This document shows positions 54,509 through 61,382 of a stretch of DNA of 64,000 nucleotides, piece after piece. A program made the position numbers and the translations under genes. How positions within the stretch are numbered: position 1 is the first letter of the stretch; each line of letters starts with the position of its first letter. Source of the DNA: Pedobacter insulae (GTDB lineage: Bacteria > Bacteroidota > Bacteroidia > Sphingobacteriales > Sphingobacteriaceae); assembly GCF_900113525.1 (NCBI RefSeq), contig NZ_FOPP01000004.1:62001-126000 (forward strand), in the 5' to 3' direction. The notes below the pieces were generated by a model, which saw nothing but the letters and a program-made list of their open reading frames with translations, did no database searches and was not told where the DNA came from.

Positions 54509-54602
54509 CCAACGAATAGCCTCCCAAAAAAATAATAATATTTTTTTATCCGACGTAGGGGTAGACCTTCATCTTGTTGTCTCATTTTAAAATTAGACAC
54601 AA

Positions 54603-55703
54603 ATGAAACTTTTGATACAAAAAATCACTCTTCTAAAAGCAATCTTTTTTGCGTTACTTTTATTAACCAGCCTTAACCTTTTTGCACAAGTTCCTGGCAA
54701 AATTCATGTTGGTTTTATTTATCCATTAAGTTCTAACGGAACCCACGCACCTTTAGATACTAACAACTTCTCTATTCACTTAATTGCAGGTGTTTCTGCT
54801 GCCGAGCGAGGATTAACTTTTGCCGGCCTAAGTAACTTCGTTCGCCACGATGCTGTGGGAAGTCAATTTGCAGGTTTCTCTAACCATATTGGTGGCAAAG
54901 CCGATGGTACCCAGTTTGCGGGGTTTGCCAATACTTATCGTGGTGGAAAAGGGGCAGCCTTTGCAGGCTTTACCAATATTGCAAATGGTAATGTAAAAGG
55001 TGCCCAATTCTCGGGTTTCGCTAATATTGCGCATCATATCAAAGGTGCCCAATTTGCTGGATTTATCAATCTTGCCCATAGCATTAAAGGTGCCCAATTT
55101 GCAGGTTTTGCAAATATTACCAGTCAAAATGTAAGCGAATCTCAGCTTGCAGGCTTTATCAATATTGCGAAAAAAGTAAAAGGTGCGCAAATTGCAGGCT
55201 TTATCAATATCGCCGACTCTTCAGATTACCCTATAGGCATTATCAACATCGTTAAGAATGGCGAAAAAAGCATCGGCGTAACTATAGATGAAACACAAAC
55301 CACCATGCTCAGCTTCCGGTCAGGCGGAAAAGCTTTATATGGCATTATTGGAGTAGGCTATAACCATCAAAATGAAGACGAAGTGTATGCCGCTGAAGTT
55401 GGCTTAGGCGCTCATTTCTTTTCATCAAATGCCTTTAGTTTAAACACCGAGCTTGTTGCCACTACTTTAGAAAGTTTTAAAGCAGGCGAATATTTTAAAA
55501 CCTCTTTCAGAGTTATGCCGAATGTCAAGCTGTTTAAAACACTAGGTGTTTTCGGCGGACCGTCAATTAACTACGTAACCACCAATACTGATGAAGGGAA
55601 GCAACTTTATACTAAAAACTTAAAGACTTGGAACAACAAATGGGGCAATGACTACAATGCACTATATGTTGGTTATACGGCTGGTTTACAGATCCTTTTT
55701 TAG
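54603..55703 (+). CDS. Outer-membrane-like protein with GxQFAGFxNIx repeats
   Basis: 366 residues with a signal peptide (to about LFAQVP, residue 30). Between about 70 and 220 there are about ten repeats of 14-16 residues, for example GSQFAGFSN, GTQFAGFAN, GAAFAGFTNIA, GAQFSGFANIA, GAQFAGFINLA, ESQLAGFINIA and GAQIAGFINIA. The regular spacing suggests a beta-solenoid or stacked strands. A C-terminal part of about 140 residues has alternating strands, FKTLGVFGGPSINYVT, and ends in Phe, like an outer membrane barrel. The repeat and C-terminal parts match those of the protein at 59700, so they are paralogous. The pattern recalls surface repeat proteins known from Leptospira. The function is unknown. 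Confidence 0.75.
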   Translation: MKLLIQKITLLKAIFFALLLLTSLNLFAQVPGKIHVGFIYPLSSNGTHAPLDTNNFSIHLIAGVSAAERGLTFAGLSNFVRHDAVGSQFAGFSNHIGGKADGTQFAGFANTYRGGKGAAFAGFTNIANGNVKGAQFSGFANIAHHIKGAQFAGFINLAHSIKGAQFAGFANITSQNVSESQLAGFINIAKKVKGAQIAGFINIADSSDYPIGIINIVKNGEKSIGVTIDETQTTMLSFRSGGKALYGIIGVGYNHQNEDEVYAAEVGLGAHFFSSNAFSLNTELVATTLESFKAGEYFKTSFRVMPNVKLFKTLGVFGGPSINYVTTNTDEGKQLYTKNLKTWNNKWGNDYNALYVGYTAGLQILF

Positions 55704-55786: not shown

Positions 55787-56437
55787 ATGAAACATTTATT
55801 ATTATTTATGCTCGGCATTTTGATGTTCAGCTCATGCCAAAAAGATCGGTTAACTGCCAATGGCGATCAAATTACAGATACCAGAACCTTAAACGAATTC
55901 ACTAGTCTGCATGTTAGCGGGGCTAGCCCAGTTCACGTAACCTATGGCAACGAATACAAAGTTGTTCTAAAAGGATCGAGCAATCTTATTCCATACTTTA
56001 AAACCACTTTAGATGGTAAACGTTTAAACTTGAGCTATAAAAATGCCAATGTTAGACAAGATGATATCGAGATTTTTGTTACCATGCCGCTTGTTAAAGG
56101 CACTTCGTTAAGCGGAAGCGGCAGCGTTAACATTGATGGTAATTTTCCATCTATTGCAGATTTTGATTTGAGCATTAGTGGTTCTGGAGATATCTCAGTA
56201 AACCAAACATTAAATATAGATCGTTTGGATGCGACTATCTCAGGCTCTGGAAAAGCATTCTTCCAAAAGGCAAATGTAAAAGAGGCTGATATCGATATCT
56301 CGGGAAGTGGCGACATACATGTACAAGTTGCCGATTATTTAAAGGCTAGAATTAGCGGCAGCGGAGAGGTTTACTATAGAGGAAATCCACAATTAGATAC
56401 CAAAGTCTCTGGTTCAGGCAAAGTACTTAAGTTTTAA
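55787..56437 (+). CDS. Head GIN domain (DUF2807) lipoprotein
   Basis: 216 residues. The N-terminus is a lipoprotein signal with Cys near residue 17 (MFSSCQKDR). The body consists of parallel-beta turns with GSGSV/SGSGDI-type repeats: LSGSGSVNIDG, ISGSGDISVNQ, ISGSGKAF, ISGSGDIHV, ISGSGEVYYRG and VSGSGKVLKF. This is the head GIN/DUF2807 beta-helix pattern, found in many Bacteroidota surface lipoproteins of unknown function. The opening TLNEFTSLHVSGASPVHVTYG is also typical. It lies 83 bp after the repeat-protein gene and 4 bp before the desaturase fusion gene. Confidence 0.88.
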   Translation: MKHLLLFMLGILMFSSCQKDRLTANGDQITDTRTLNEFTSLHVSGASPVHVTYGNEYKVVLKGSSNLIPYFKTTLDGKRLNLSYKNANVRQDDIEIFVTMPLVKGTSLSGSGSVNIDGNFPSIADFDLSISGSGDISVNQTLNIDRLDATISGSGKAFFQKANVKEADIDISGSGDIHVQVADYLKARISGSGEVYYRGNPQLDTKVSGSGKVLKF

Positions 56438-56441
56438 GACC

Positions 56442-57917
56442 ATGTTAGCCATCCCCGAATTATTTGGCGCTGCCGAAATTAATTTAGCCGATGTAAATTT
56501 GCTGCAGGCGAAAGCTCCAGACTTAATGCTGTATGCATTACCTGGCGTGTTCTTCTTTACTATTGTTGAGCTCTTAGTATCTCATTTTGGTGAACATAAA
56601 ACTTATGAAAACAAAGAGACCTTAGGTTCATTACTTATCGGTTTAGGCAATTTAACTGTAAATCTGCTAATGAAGGTAGTGTTGGTTTATGCTGCAATTT
56701 GCTTGTACAATCTTTTGCCTTGGCGCATGTTGCTGAATTGGTACACGTTAATTCCTGCCTTCATTCTATATGATTTTTGCAGTTACTGGTCGCACAGAAT
56801 TTCGCATTACAACCGTTTCTTTTGGGCAACTCATGTTGTGCACCATTCGGCAGAGCATTATAATTTAACCGTGGCATTCAGACAAAGCTGGGTACAGCAT
56901 TTCAAAGTAATCTTCTTTATACCTGTAGTGTTAGTTGGTTTTCATCCTGTTGTATTTATGGTAGTTAGTCAGTTAAGCACTTTATATCAATTTTGGGTTC
57001 ATACAGAGGCCATTGGAAAACTGCATCCTTTTATGGAGCGGTATTTTGGTACCCCTTCCAACCACAGAGTTCATCATGGGAGTCAGGAAAAGTATTTAGA
57101 TAAGAACTTTGGGGCTACCTTTATGATTTGGGATCATCTATTTAATTCATTTCAATACGAGGAAGAGAAGCCGATATACGGGCTAACTAAGCCGGTAACT
57201 CATAAAATTAATCCCTTTCTCCTCAATTTTCAAGAGTACATTGATATGTTTAATGATGTTAAAGCAAGCAGGGGTTTAAAGGAAGCCCTATTTTTTATCT
57301 TCGCTAGTCCTGGTAAAATTCATCACCGAAAATTAATGCCTTTATCTATGGCGACGTATAGATCCAATGAGTATAAGCATTTTAAAGTAATTGTTATGAT
57401 AACGGTATTTATTTTGCTGTTAACAAGTTTGGTAAGTGCTCAAAACACTGCAGAAGCACTCCCTACACCTGTGGGGAAAAACCTGCTTTTTTTCTTACAG
57501 CGTACACCTGATGCCAACACCATTATTTATGAAATTAACTTTAGGAGAGATGGTACAATTGATCCGCAGAAACCAGTTATTGGTTCCTGGATTAGGTATG
57601 AAGAAGAACAGAAGTATAAACCTTTAACTGGAATTGAACAGCGATTTGCTTATGGCGTAAAATGTAGATCTCTTGGTAAGGATGAGTTTGAAATCCGTTT
57701 AGCTGCTTATAAAAAAATGCCACTTTATTTATTAAAATCAACAGCAGACAATACTTATAAGATGTATATAAAAAACGGAGACGATAATTTGTTGCTTAAG
57801 AGAGTATTCGTAAAAGTAGACGGTGGCTCGTTTTGGTTCCCGAAAGTGCAGTATATTGATTTGATAACAGCACATAGTGAAACAGGCAAAGAGATTATTA
57901 AAAGGATAGCGATTTAG
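56442..57917 (+). CDS. Sterol desaturase/fatty acid hydroxylase fused to DUF4833
   Basis: 491 residues. Residues about 1-305 are a membrane di-iron hydroxylase with histidine boxes HRISH, HVVHHSAEH and HRVHH, separated by transmembrane helices. Residues about 313-332 form a hydrophobic stretch ending LVSAQN, which looks like a signal peptide. Residues about 335-485 read NLLFFLQRTPDANTIIYEINF..., ITGIEQRFAYGVK-like, and IRLAAYKKMPLYL, matching DUF4833. The joint suggests two ancestral genes, with Met319 (57396) a possible internal start for a secreted DUF4833 product. Substrate is probably a lipid. It starts 4 bp after the GIN gene. Confidence 0.85.
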   Translation: MLAIPELFGAAEINLADVNLLQAKAPDLMLYALPGVFFFTIVELLVSHFGEHKTYENKETLGSLLIGLGNLTVNLLMKVVLVYAAICLYNLLPWRMLLNWYTLIPAFILYDFCSYWSHRISHYNRFFWATHVVHHSAEHYNLTVAFRQSWVQHFKVIFFIPVVLVGFHPVVFMVVSQLSTLYQFWVHTEAIGKLHPFMERYFGTPSNHRVHHGSQEKYLDKNFGATFMIWDHLFNSFQYEEEKPIYGLTKPVTHKINPFLLNFQEYIDMFNDVKASRGLKEALFFIFASPGKIHHRKLMPLSMATYRSNEYKHFKVIVMITVFILLLTSLVSAQNTAEALPTPVGKNLLFFLQRTPDANTIIYEINFRRDGTIDPQKPVIGSWIRYEEEQKYKPLTGIEQRFAYGVKCRSLGKDEFEIRLAAYKKMPLYLLKSTADNTYKMYIKNGDDNLLLKRVFVKVDGGSFWFPKVQYIDLITAHSETGKEIIKRIAI

Positions 57918-58138: not shown

Positions 58139-58146
58139 TATATTTG
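58139..58146 (+). promoter_or_regulatory. -7 box just before the ECF sigma gene
   Basis: TATATTTG matches TAnnTTTG exactly and ends 4 bp before the proposed TTG start of the sigma gene. Transcription would begin close to the start codon, giving little or no leader. No well-spaced -33 TTG was seen. Confidence 0.4.
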
Positions 58147-58150
58147 AACC

Positions 58151-58729
58151 TTGAAAACAATTAGCGCTTCTTCAGATCATTACCTAGATGATGCAGACTT
58201 TGAATCCTTATTCAGACTGCATTATAAGGCGCTGCTTGCTTATGCCACGGTGATTGTAAAGGACGAAGATGATGCTGAAGAAATTGTTCAACAACTTTTT
58301 TTAAAGTTTTGGGAAAGAAGAGCGCAACTTAGTGTACAGACCTCGTTAAAAGCATACTTGTATAAATGCGTTTATCACGATAGTTTAAATTACTTGAAAC
58401 ATCAAAAAGTTAAAACAAAATATCAGGATTTTACCCATCATGGTATGGATTCGGCTTATCATACGGCGGCTGATCGGTTAGAGCTTACAGAATTGCAGCA
58501 GCAAATTAATTTAGCATTAAACGATTTGCCAGAGCAGTGCAGGACTATCTTTCAAATGAGCAGATTTGAAGAACTAAAATATAGAGAAATAGCTGAGGAG
58601 CTGGGTTTATCTACTAAAACTATAGAAAACCAAATGGGGAAGGCTTTGAGGATTATGCGTATAAAATTGGCGGATTTCCTCATTTTATTGCTTTCTTGTT
58701 TAATGTATTACAAAGATTTTTTAAAATAG
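58151..58729 (+). CDS. ECF sigma-70 factor, FecI-like
   Basis: 192 residues. The region-2 sequence FESLFRLHYKALLAYATVIVKDEDDAEEIVQQLFLKFWERR and the region-4 sequence INLALNDLPEQCRTIFQMSRFEELKYREIAEELGLSTKTIENQMGKAL define a Bacteroidota FecI-like ECF sigma factor. There is no in-frame ATG before region 2; an upstream stop at 58145-58147 forces initiation at TTG 58151 or a nearby non-ATG codon. It is followed 12 bp later by a FecR-type anti-sigma gene. It probably directs transcription of the downstream repeat protein gene or of other targets in response to a surface signal. Confidence 0.93.
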   Translation: MKTISASSDHYLDDADFESLFRLHYKALLAYATVIVKDEDDAEEIVQQLFLKFWERRAQLSVQTSLKAYLYKCVYHDSLNYLKHQKVKTKYQDFTHHGMDSAYHTAADRLELTELQQQINLALNDLPEQCRTIFQMSRFEELKYREIAEELGLSTKTIENQMGKALRIMRIKLADFLILLLSCLMYYKDFLK

Positions 58730-58741
58730 GAGAGATAAGAG

Positions 58742-59695
58742 ATGGAAGATGAATTATTAATTAAATTTTTACTAAGGGAAACTAACGCTGAGGAAAATTC
58801 AGCGGTAAATGAATGGCTGCAGTCAACTGCAGAGAACCCTGTTTACTTAGCTTCTTTAGAAAGGATTTGGGCCGAAAGCAGGAACTTATTGAGTAAGCGT
58901 GAGGTAGATATCGATGCCGCTTGGCTAAAATTTAAAAATAAAGCCAATACAGTAAAGCCCAATGCGACGATAAGGTTAAAACCAATCAACTCATTGGCGC
59001 GCATTGCCGCGGTATTTGTGCTCGCTATAGGTTCATGGGCACTTTACACGATTTTTAAAACCCAAGGTTACACTGATGTGAAAACGAATCTCCAAGTGAG
59101 GTCACAACTGCTTCCAGATGGTTCTGAAATTACATTGAATAAATTTTCACATATTGAATATGCAAACAACTTTAAAAATAAAAGGAACATTAAACTGGAA
59201 AGTGGGGATGTATTTTTTGAAGTTGCCAAAGATAAGGCTAAACCTTTTATAATTGAAATAGATAAGGTTACTGTAGAGGTGGTTGGAACTTCTTTTAATA
59301 TCAAGCATTTAAAAGGATTAACTGAAGTAGTAGTTGAAACAGGAATTGTTAAGGTGAGCTTGGGTAACGCTACTGTCTTATTGCATAAAGGAGAGAAATT
59401 GGTTTTAGAAAAAGGAGTAAATAAATTAGCCAAACTACCGGTTAACGATGAATTGTATAACTATTATAGAAGTAAATTATTTATCGCCGATCAAACACCT
59501 TTACCAATTTTAGTCGCCATTTTAAATGAAGCTTATGGTGGTAATGTAGTCGTAACAGGTGCGGCAAAAGAGTTAACAATAACTACAACTTTACCTTATG
59601 AAAAATCATTGGATGAAAATCTGAGAACGATTATTAAAACTTTTGATAATTTAAAACTTAAGCGTAACCAAAACGAAATTATATTGTCTTACTAA
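58742..59695 (+). CDS. FecR-family anti-sigma factor
   Basis: 317 residues. A cytoplasmic N-domain (1-80) is followed by one membrane helix (about 86-105, IAAVFVLAIGSWALYTIF). The FecR domain (about 112-215) reads RSQLLPDGSEITLNKFSHIEY, RNIKLESGDVFFEVAKDKAKPFIIE and VEVVGTSFNIK, and the C-terminal DUF4974 (about 245-317) has FIADQTPLPILVAILNEAYG. It should hold the ECF sigma factor at the inner membrane until an STN-containing outer membrane partner signals. It lies 12 bp after the sigma gene and 4 bp before the STN-repeat gene. Confidence 0.94.
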   Translation: MEDELLIKFLLRETNAEENSAVNEWLQSTAENPVYLASLERIWAESRNLLSKREVDIDAAWLKFKNKANTVKPNATIRLKPINSLARIAAVFVLAIGSWALYTIFKTQGYTDVKTNLQVRSQLLPDGSEITLNKFSHIEYANNFKNKRNIKLESGDVFFEVAKDKAKPFIIEIDKVTVEVVGTSFNIKHLKGLTEVVVETGIVKVSLGNATVLLHKGEKLVLEKGVNKLAKLPVNDELYNYYRSKLFIADQTPLPILVAILNEAYGGNVVVTGAAKELTITTTLPYEKSLDENLRTIIKTFDNLKLKRNQNEIILSY

Positions 59696-59699
59696 GCGA

Positions 59700-61382
59700 A
59701 TGAAGCATAAAATTATTCTTTTCCTACTATTGCTTTCTAATTTTGCTTGGGCACAGGGCTATAGAAACAATTTATCTAAATTGGTTACTTTCAACATTAA
59801 GCAACAACGTGTTCGAGATGCTTTGCAGCACATCAGTACAGCAGGTAACTTCTATTTTTCTTATAACGGGAAATTAATTAACCAAGATAGTGTAATCGAT
59901 TTAAATGTACAGCGTATGCCTGTACGAGATGTGCTTGACCGGATGTTTGCTGGCAAGGTTGCCTATAAGGAAAGCGAAGAATATGTAATACTAAGGTATG
60001 CAGTAAATCATTTAACCATTGAGCCTGAAAATATTACCACTGCCGAAAATTTATATCTCATCAGTGGTTACATTGTTGATACCAAAACGGGGAAAAAAGT
60101 AAAACAAGCCAGTGTTTACGAAAAACGCCTATTGCAAAGTACGCTAACGGATGATGAAGGCTATTTTACCTTGCGGTTTAAAGGAGAACATAAAGAAGTT
60201 ATATTAACTGCTAGTAAAGAAACCTATAGAGATACTGCTTTGGTTTTTCTTGCTGATATAAAAATTGAGCCGCAAGGATATAATGATCCCGATAAAGAGA
60301 GGGGTACTATTTTCTCGAATACCATTGAAGATCTAGGAATTAGTAAATTTCTTTTATCTTCTAAGCAACGAATTCAAAATCTTAACATTCCTAACTTCTT
60401 TGCAAATACGCCATTTCAAGCCTCGCTATTGCCTGGTTTAAGTTCGCACGGCATGATGAGTAGCCGGGTGGTCAATAAGGCTTCCCTGAATGTGCTGGGT
60501 GGCTATACAGCAGGTGTTGATGGAGTAGAGGTAGCGGGGTTATTTAATTTAACTATAGGTAAAGTAAATTCTTTTCAAGCCGCAGGTTTATTTAATGCGG
60601 TAGGTGGTGATGTTCAGGGAACGCAGTTCGCCGGTTTAATTAATTACGATAGACAAAACGTAGGAGGTTTTCAGGCTGCAGGTATTGCAAATTCAGTAAG
60701 TGGGAATTTAAATGGAGTGCAAATTGGTGGGATAGGAAACCTTGTGCGTAAAGACGTAAAAGGAGTACAGATTGCGGGTATTGGAAATATGACCACAAGC
60801 AAGTTTACGGGTACACAGATTGCCGGAGTGTTTAATTATGCCAAAAAGCATGAAGGACTGCAGATTGGCCTAATTAATTTGGCGGATAGCAGCTCTGGTA
60901 CGTCAATTGGCTTGCTTAACCTCTCCAAAAATGGGTATAAAAAACTAAGTTTCTTTAGCAATGATTTAGTAAATGCCAATGTTGCGCTTAAAACCGGCAA
61001 TGCCAAATTGTATACGCTTTTAATTGCTGGTAAAAATTTTTCCGATACAGCAAACATAGAAACCATTGGAATTGGTTTTGGTCATGATTTCTTATTAGGT
61101 AATCGGTTAGCAATCGAAACAGAAATGATTACCCAGTATTTGCATTTGGGTAATTGGGATTATGCGAACATATTAATGCGTTTTCAAGCTAATTTAGAAA
61201 TCAAGCTATTTAAAGGTTTTGCTGTATTCGGCGGACCATCTTATGCTTATTATAACAGTGACGCTCCCACAGGCTCAAGTGCAAAAGGCTATAAACAAAA
61301 TATTGTTCCAGCAAAACACCACAAGTTTAGTGGAAATAACCAGGGTTGGTGGGGCTGGAATGTCGGGGTGACGTTGTTTTAG
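59700..61382 (+). CDS. STN and carboxypeptidase-regulatory domain protein with AGxxN repeats and a barrel-like end
   Basis: 560 residues with a signal peptide (to about AWAQG, residue 20). Residues 27-100 form an STN (secretin/TonB short N-terminal) domain, LVTFNIKQQRVRDALQHIS... VAYKESEEYVILRY. Residues 115-190 form a carboxypeptidase-regulatory-like domain (ISGYIVDTKTGKKVKQASVYE). No TonB plug follows. Instead there are repeats from about 275 to 420: GVEVAGLFN, SFQAAGLFN, GTQFAGLIN, GFQAAGIAN, GVQIGGIGN, GVQIAGIGN and GTQIAGVFN. A C-terminal barrel-like part (KGFAVFGGPSYAYYN, ending TLF) matches the protein at 54603. Position after FecI and FecR makes it the likely signal receptor. Confidence 0.85.
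   Translation: MKHKIILFLLLLSNFAWAQGYRNNLSKLVTFNIKQQRVRDALQHISTAGNFYFSYNGKLINQDSVIDLNVQRMPVRDVLDRMFAGKVAYKESEEYVILRYAVNHLTIEPENITTAENLYLISGYIVDTKTGKKVKQASVYEKRLLQSTLTDDEGYFTLRFKGEHKEVILTASKETYRDTALVFLADIKIEPQGYNDPDKERGTIFSNTIEDLGISKFLLSSKQRIQNLNIPNFFANTPFQASLLPGLSSHGMMSSRVVNKASLNVLGGYTAGVDGVEVAGLFNLTIGKVNSFQAAGLFNAVGGDVQGTQFAGLINYDRQNVGGFQAAGIANSVSGNLNGVQIGGIGNLVRKDVKGVQIAGIGNMTTSKFTGTQIAGVFNYAKKHEGLQIGLINLADSSSGTSIGLLNLSKNGYKKLSFFSNDLVNANVALKTGNAKLYTLLIAGKNFSDTANIETIGIGFGHDFLLGNRLAIETEMITQYLHLGNWDYANILMRFQANLEIKLFKGFAVFGGPSYAYYNSDAPTGSSAKGYKQNIVPAKHHKFSGNNQGWWGWNVGVTLF

Follow-up and report, generated by a model that had tools for sequence, protein, structure and literature searches.

A FecI-FecR-Type Unit of Pedobacter insulae with a Putative Plug-less STN Receptor That Carries LA_2272 Repeats

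Results and Discussion

The STN Protein and Its Partner Genes

A putative cell-surface signalling unit lies in a 64,000-nucleotide stretch of DNA from the soil-type bacterium Pedobacter insulae (NZ_FOPP01000004.1, positions 62,001–126,000, forward strand). We refer to this stretch, at its full length, as the window, and all coordinates below are positions in it. Three genes on the + strand follow each other in the order extracytoplasmic function (ECF) sigma factor, FecR-type anti-sigma factor and STN protein. The intergenic gaps measure 12 and 4 bp, as a preliminary description of this DNA had stated.

58151–58729, + strand: FecI-type ECF sigma factor with a TTG start (TIGR02985, 175.4 bits; cut-off 126.4)
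58742–59695, + strand: FecR-type anti-sigma factor (PF04773, 67.6 bits; cut-off 24)
59700–61382, + strand: STN-CarboxypepD_reg-LA_2272 repeat-beta-barrel protein, proposed plug-less receptor (560 residues, secreted)

The FecR protein shows one hydropathy peak (residues 88-106), which corresponds to a single membrane span. The third protein begins with a signal-peptide-like stretch, after which the following regions can be distinguished.

59781–59999, + strand: STN signalling domain, residues 28-100 (fold order in the AlphaFold2 (AF2) model; PF07660 in relatives; Foldseek)
60009–60251, + strand: CarboxypepD_reg-like beta-sandwich, residues 104-184 (PF13715; PDB profile match)
60255–60473, + strand: low-confidence linker where a plug would be, residues 186-258 (predicted local distance difference test, pLDDT; no plug family)
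60474–60950, + strand: LA_2272 repeat region, within residues 259-417 (NF047436; repeat spacing count)
60960–61379, + strand: C-terminal long beta strands, barrel-like, residues 421-560 (AF2; weak Foldseek matches)

STN and carboxypeptidase-regulatory domains had already been proposed for this protein, and the assignment holds. AF2 places residues 28-100 in the STN-like order beta-alpha-beta-beta-alpha-beta-beta, and both STN and CarbopepD_reg_2 were matched in all 52 relatives scanned (E ≤ 1). Foldseek matched the STN region to the N0 domain of PilQ and to a Dot/Icm outer-complex protein.

The preliminary description had also noted about seven repeats. We count exactly seven, in register and with a spacing of 16 residues, and they belong to the LA_2272 family: the NCBIfam model NF047436 scores 39.2 bits against a curated cut-off of 25 and also matches 51 of the 52 relatives (E ≤ 0.1). 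Among relatives the LA_2272 domain falls into length classes of about 302, 318 and 334 residues, with 7, 8 or 9 repeats in many of them; the counter undercounts divergent copies, and these repeat numbers may be too low. Length steps of one repeat speak against a closed barrel with one membrane strand per repeat and favour a stacked solenoid or hairpins. The region after the linker is modelled as confidently beta up to the C-terminus, with long terminal strands at a pLDDT of about 85-96 (AF2). Foldseek matched this end to NspA/OmpA-like outer-membrane barrels, weakly (E 4e-3 or weaker), in agreement with the small barrel-like end proposed earlier. The final residue is Phe, and 77 of 80 relatives end in Phe, Met or Leu.

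Absence of a Detectable Plug or Importer Barrel

Neither a plug nor a 22-strand barrel had been recognized in the initial reading of the sequence, and our searches bear this out. The Plug family (PF07715) gave no match to the window protein at E ≤ 1 and does not occur among the 25 most frequent families of the 52 relatives. Similarly, no TonB-receptor/SusC barrel family was detected in the window protein or among the families listed for these relatives. About 300 C-terminal residues are assigned to a different family than the TonB-receptor barrels. The linker (residues 186-259) comprises about 74 residues with a pLDDT of mostly 27-50 (AF2), compared with 107 positions in the plug model. In a PDB profile search the sole match below E 0.1 was an 85-residue fragment of a SusC homologue (E 1.2e-4), which covers the CarboxypepD part. 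Hidden plug or SusC homology, for which the preliminary description had suggested a test at residues 190-270, was not found at residues 186–270 in the family scan, the AF2 linker or the PDB profile search.

In the following, labels such as L004, L110 or L136 denote the genome loci compared, and G000 is the genome of P. insulae itself. By contrast to the window protein, the FecR-linked receptor L005 of this same genome contains STN, CarbopepD and Plug. Another FecR-linked STN protein (L004, on C8 of the same genome) carries an OMP_b-brl_3 barrel, and no plug was detected in the part of it that was read. This genome may therefore encode unusual STN receptors of more than one kind.

Conservation Across Bacteroidia

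A search for the same architecture beside FecI and FecR, as had been proposed, returned it from across the class. FecR lies directly upstream of the STN gene in 46 of 46 same-family loci, in 80 of 80 named genome loci, in 20 of 20 paralogue loci (copies of 500–727 residues that are more distant or differ in size class) and in 19 of 19 loci drawn class-wide. The 80 named loci come from Pedobacter, Daejeonella, Hufsiella, Arcticibacter, Albibacterium, Mucilaginibacter, Terrimonas, Segetibacter and others; 79 of them include the sigma gene, and the exception (L113) is cut at a contig edge. Throughout, the sigma gene precedes FecR nearly everywhere, the exceptions being genes affected by an edge or a start call. 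Overlaps of -1 or -4 between the FecR stop and the STN start are common. This conserved adjacency, with its frequent overlap, supports the earlier suggestion that the genes form a functional unit.

Of 395 genomes sampled across the class, 135 gave profile matches, some of them not full-length; they represent 83 of 196 genera. In a 16-member alignment of the STN protein, taken over its full length, column identity averages 58%. On the evidence of these comparisons, the sigma–FecR–STN/LA_2272 arrangement can be said to recur through the class Bacteroidia.

A Promoter-like Motif Before an STN-less Paralogue

About 3.5 kb upstream of the unit, the window contains a second LA_2272 gene, which is preceded by a promoter-like site and followed by two further genes.

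54557–54581, + strand: promoter-like site of ECF type, AGGGGTA-N12-GTTGTC (46 bp upstream of the STN-less paralogue's start codon)
54603–55703, + strand: STN-less LA_2272-repeat outer-membrane beta protein, 366 residues (probable target and sensor paralogue)
55787–56437, + strand: DUF2807 (head-GIN) protein (PF10988, 106.8 bits; probable co-regulated gene)
56442–57917, + strand: fusion of fatty acid hydroxylase and DUF4833 (PF04116, 93.9 bits; PF16117, 145.3 bits; probable co-regulated gene)

The letters at 54556–54581 are TAGGGGTAGACCTTCATCTTGTTGTC. This site is the only perfect copy of AGGGGTA-N12-GTTGTC in the 4.39 Mb genome of P. insulae. When up to two mismatches are allowed, 34 loci and L110 have the motif 44–49 bp ahead of the STN-less paralogue. 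In Chitinophagaceae-type loci it stands 86–87 bp before the sigma gene (11 loci) and 58–68 bp before the next gene, in most cases that of a TonB receptor (9 loci). Nine Mucilaginibacter loci have it 55–81 bp before a DUF6134 gene. When all 80 loci were shuffled, 10 such matches arose in total. The motif-bearing gene thus shifts with the arrangement of the locus. A divergent TonB receptor gene also bears the motif in Albibacterium (L110). Since the motif-bearing DUF6134 gene heads the sigma operon in Mucilaginibacter (L119-L127, neighbour cluster 13), the sensor genes may be autoregulated there.

Over the whole P. insulae genome, up to two mismatches yield 53 sites versus 126 for a reversed-pattern control, and we therefore limit the genome-wide argument to perfect sites. 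The 147 genomes of the genus hold 100 of these, 93 in the 70 genomes with an orthologue and 7 in the 77 genomes without, counts that ignore shared descent. Fifty-one of the 93 (from 51 genomes) lie on the strand of the STN gene and 2.8–6.5 kb upstream of it. At 24 other perfect-site loci, the gene behind the site mostly encodes a small barrel protein of the outer membrane (OMP_b-brl_2, about 189 residues); the other sites precede genes for lipid-A-type acyltransferases, DUF6268 proteins, TonB-receptor-like proteins or another STN-less LA_2272 protein. The common theme of these predicted targets is the outer membrane. The motif before the STN-less paralogue, and the proposed connection of both to the signalling unit, are new in this analysis.

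Three individual sites merit description. The perfect site of L189 (G018:C10) has a lipid-A-type acyltransferase gene on one side and, on the other, an STN-less LA_2272 gene in divergent orientation, which is followed by the small outer-membrane protein gene known from other sites. L190 (G020:C6, motif at 1525, - strand) has its perfect site before another FecI-FecR operon, a hint that sigma factors act in a cascade in this genome. In P. insulae itself, a one-mismatch site occurs 46 bp before an alpha/beta-hydrolase lipoprotein-like gene (L136, G000:C9:441524); this gene is possibly a second target, or the site may have arisen by chance.

The STN-less paralogue shares 34-35% identity with the repeat/barrel region of the sensor. 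AF2 models it as almost entirely beta (mean pLDDT 86), and its Foldseek matches are outer-membrane barrels, again weak. A counterpart is encoded upstream on the same strand in 56 of the 80 loci and downstream in L110 (57 in all). The DUF2807 and hydroxylase/DUF4833 genes sit between the two LA_2272 copies. The corresponding neighbour clusters recur in 45 of 80 loci (DUF2807, both Sphingobacteriaceae and Chitinophagaceae) and in 29 of 80 (hydroxylase/DUF4833). Chitinophagaceae-type loci show the order STN gene, TonB receptor gene without STN, DUF2807 gene, and in Mucilaginibacter loci a DUF6134 gene heads the operon. Most Pedobacter-type loci, including the window, contain no linked TonB receptor.

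One further element marks the start of the sensor operon.

58139–58146, + strand: TATATTTG, resembling a housekeeping -7 element, ahead of the sigma gene (enriched upstream of sigma genes)

We take TATATTTG to be a -7-like housekeeping element of the Bacteroidota type; its first base, 58139, is also where the preliminary description had let the unit begin. It is present upstream of 32 of 55 sigma genes, compared with 26 of 1080 pieces drawn at random from these loci, and the sensor operon seems to have a promoter of its own. The TTG start of the window sigma gene follows only 4 bases after this element. Several relatives use a GTG roughly 19 bases beyond it; for the window sigma factor, the start codon is uncertain.

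Proposed Mechanism and Alternatives

The in silico basis for interpreting this locus consists of gene order, tight spacing, domain content, the absence of a detectable plug, class-wide conservation, and the position and locus association of the motif. We consider it highly probable that the locus encodes a FecI-FecR-type cell-surface signalling system, in which a protein made of STN-CarboxypepD_reg and an LA_2272 repeat/barrel serves as the outer-membrane transducer in place of a TonB-dependent importer. Sigma factor, FecR and sensor would be expressed from their own housekeeping-like promoter. The LA_2272 outer-membrane domain would be the sensing part, and the periplasmic STN domain would relay a change there to FecR, at its C-terminal part. 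For FoxR and FoxA, an STN–STN interface has been modelled (PMC11637429). Contact between STN and FecR, together with proteolysis of FecR, would free the sigma factor. The free sigma factor would then recognize AGGGGTA-N12-GTTGTC and switch on the operon for the STN-less sensor paralogue, the DUF2807 protein and the fatty-acid hydroxylase/DUF4833 protein. In relatives, the targets may also include a small outer-membrane protein, a lipid-A-type acyltransferase, and a DUF6134 gene or a TonB receptor. The input signal is most likely a state or a ligand of the outer membrane, because the sensor's outer-membrane domain itself has a paralogue among the probable targets, together with genes for lipid and outer-membrane protein functions.

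Several observations weigh against this interpretation. In the window copy, the STN match (residues 53-85, 22.9 bits) and the CarbopepD_reg_2 match (residues 121-173, 31.1 bits) stay just below their cut-offs of 28.4 and 32.2 bits. FecR_C, the STN-like C-terminal domain, is absent from the matches of the window FecR at E ≤ 1 in the family scan; it scores above cut-off in the FecR proteins of 4 of 4 relatives scanned. PDB fold searches with the two LA_2272 proteins gave best barrel matches of E 1.6e-3 and 3.2e-3 and none at E ≤ 0.001, and as these matches are weak we assign no particular barrel type. Because the loci share descent, the locus counts are not independent events. The 42 further perfect sites in genomes with an orthologue may partly serve other ECF sigma factors, and the connection between motif and sigma factor is one of genetic association.

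Other explanations must be judged on the same evidence. The system could serve a nutrient importer in trans, with the LA_2272 protein reporting on an associated TonB receptor. Such a role would account for the motif-bearing gene for an STN-less TonB receptor after the STN gene in Chitinophagaceae and for the motif-bearing divergent TonB receptor in Albibacterium L110. Most Pedobacter-type loci, however, come without a linked TonB receptor, and their probable targets are envelope genes. We consider this explanation unlikely. The same data divide the earlier proposal that this receptor senses without importing a nutrient: it fits P. insulae, with envelope genes as the probable targets, but it is not general, since the Chitinophagaceae motif before a TonB receptor gene points to a link with import in some lineages.

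We give a slim chance to the idea that the STN protein has a structural or adhesive role at the surface, with an STN domain that merely anchors or assembles it and a FecI-FecR neighbourhood that reflects regulation by the sigma factor instead of sensing. STN domains are also found in secretins, oligomerize and interact with each other (PMC11637429), and LA_2272 proteins bear the name surface repeat proteins. On the other hand, the Pedobacter AGGGGTA motif precedes the STN-less copy and not the STN gene, FecR and the STN gene are tightly linked, and paralogues retain the order of their FecI-FecR partners. Hardly credible is a degenerate SusC-like TonB-dependent transducer that has lost plug and barrel and persists as a decoy or relic. 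It would explain why signal peptide, STN and CarboxypepD_reg follow each other as in FecR-linked receptors of the same genome, but the C-terminal half is of a different family (LA_2272), well conserved and intact class-wide, which argues against a decaying gene.

Building on signalling by a plug-less transducer, we tentatively suggest, as a possibility still short of an even chance, a Bacteroidia-wide surveillance of the outer membrane. The STN-fused LA_2272 barrel and its STN-less paralogue would sample one and the same ligand or state of the membrane. Acting via FecR and the sigma factor, the fused barrel would set the levels of this paralogue and of lipid- and outer-membrane-protein-modifying genes, for envelope homeostasis and not import. 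If the proposed signalling role is correct, a FecI–FecR module can pair with an outer-membrane protein other than a TonB importer, in a design conserved in Bacteroidia with several paralogue groups. The promoter motif supplies a list of candidate target genes, so that function becomes directly testable. LA_2272 repeat proteins, DUF2807, DUF4833, DUF6134 and DUF6268 would gain a regulatory context.

Comparison with Known Systems

With FecIRA signalling (by TonB-dependent transducers like FecA, FpvA and FoxA) the window system shares a FecI-type sigma factor, a one-span FecR, a secreted STN protein, their location in a single cluster and a promoter-like motif at the probable targets. It would work like FecIRA signalling, yet its STN protein has neither the plug nor the 22-strand TonB-receptor barrel and does not classify as a TonB-dependent transducer. 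In addition, its probable targets are an STN-less paralogue and envelope genes, and not the receptor itself. The STN-bearing SusC-type receptors found next to FecR in Bacteroidota have the same N-terminal order of signal peptide, STN and CarboxypepD_reg; in the window protein, an LA_2272 domain replaces their C-terminal importer. The LA_2272 surface repeat proteins (NF047436) belong to the same repeat family, for which the window protein scores above the curated cut-off, but the model describes a 30-position repeat only, and its definition includes neither STN nor a link to sigma factors.

The preliminary description had envisaged an undescribed type of receptor. We found no paper in the open-access literature that describes receptors composed of STN plus LA_2272, and this arrangement seems to be undescribed; the wider notion of a non-importing receptor has a precedent in VreA. 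This STN signalling protein from the PUMA3 system (VreA-VreI-VreR) of Pseudomonas aeruginosa also lacks a plug and a receptor barrel (PMC2729926). VreA shares an operon with a sigma and an anti-sigma factor in a system that does not regulate iron uptake, is mainly periplasmic and has a TolA/TonB-like C-terminal domain (PMC2729926, PMC4971064). Deletion of vreA left the regulon unaltered in low phosphate (PMC4971064). VreA is a partial precedent: both STN proteins do without a TonB-receptor barrel and are clustered with sigma and anti-sigma factors, but the C-terminal half of the window protein is an LA_2272 repeat region with a predicted outer-membrane barrel instead of a TolA/TonB-like domain.

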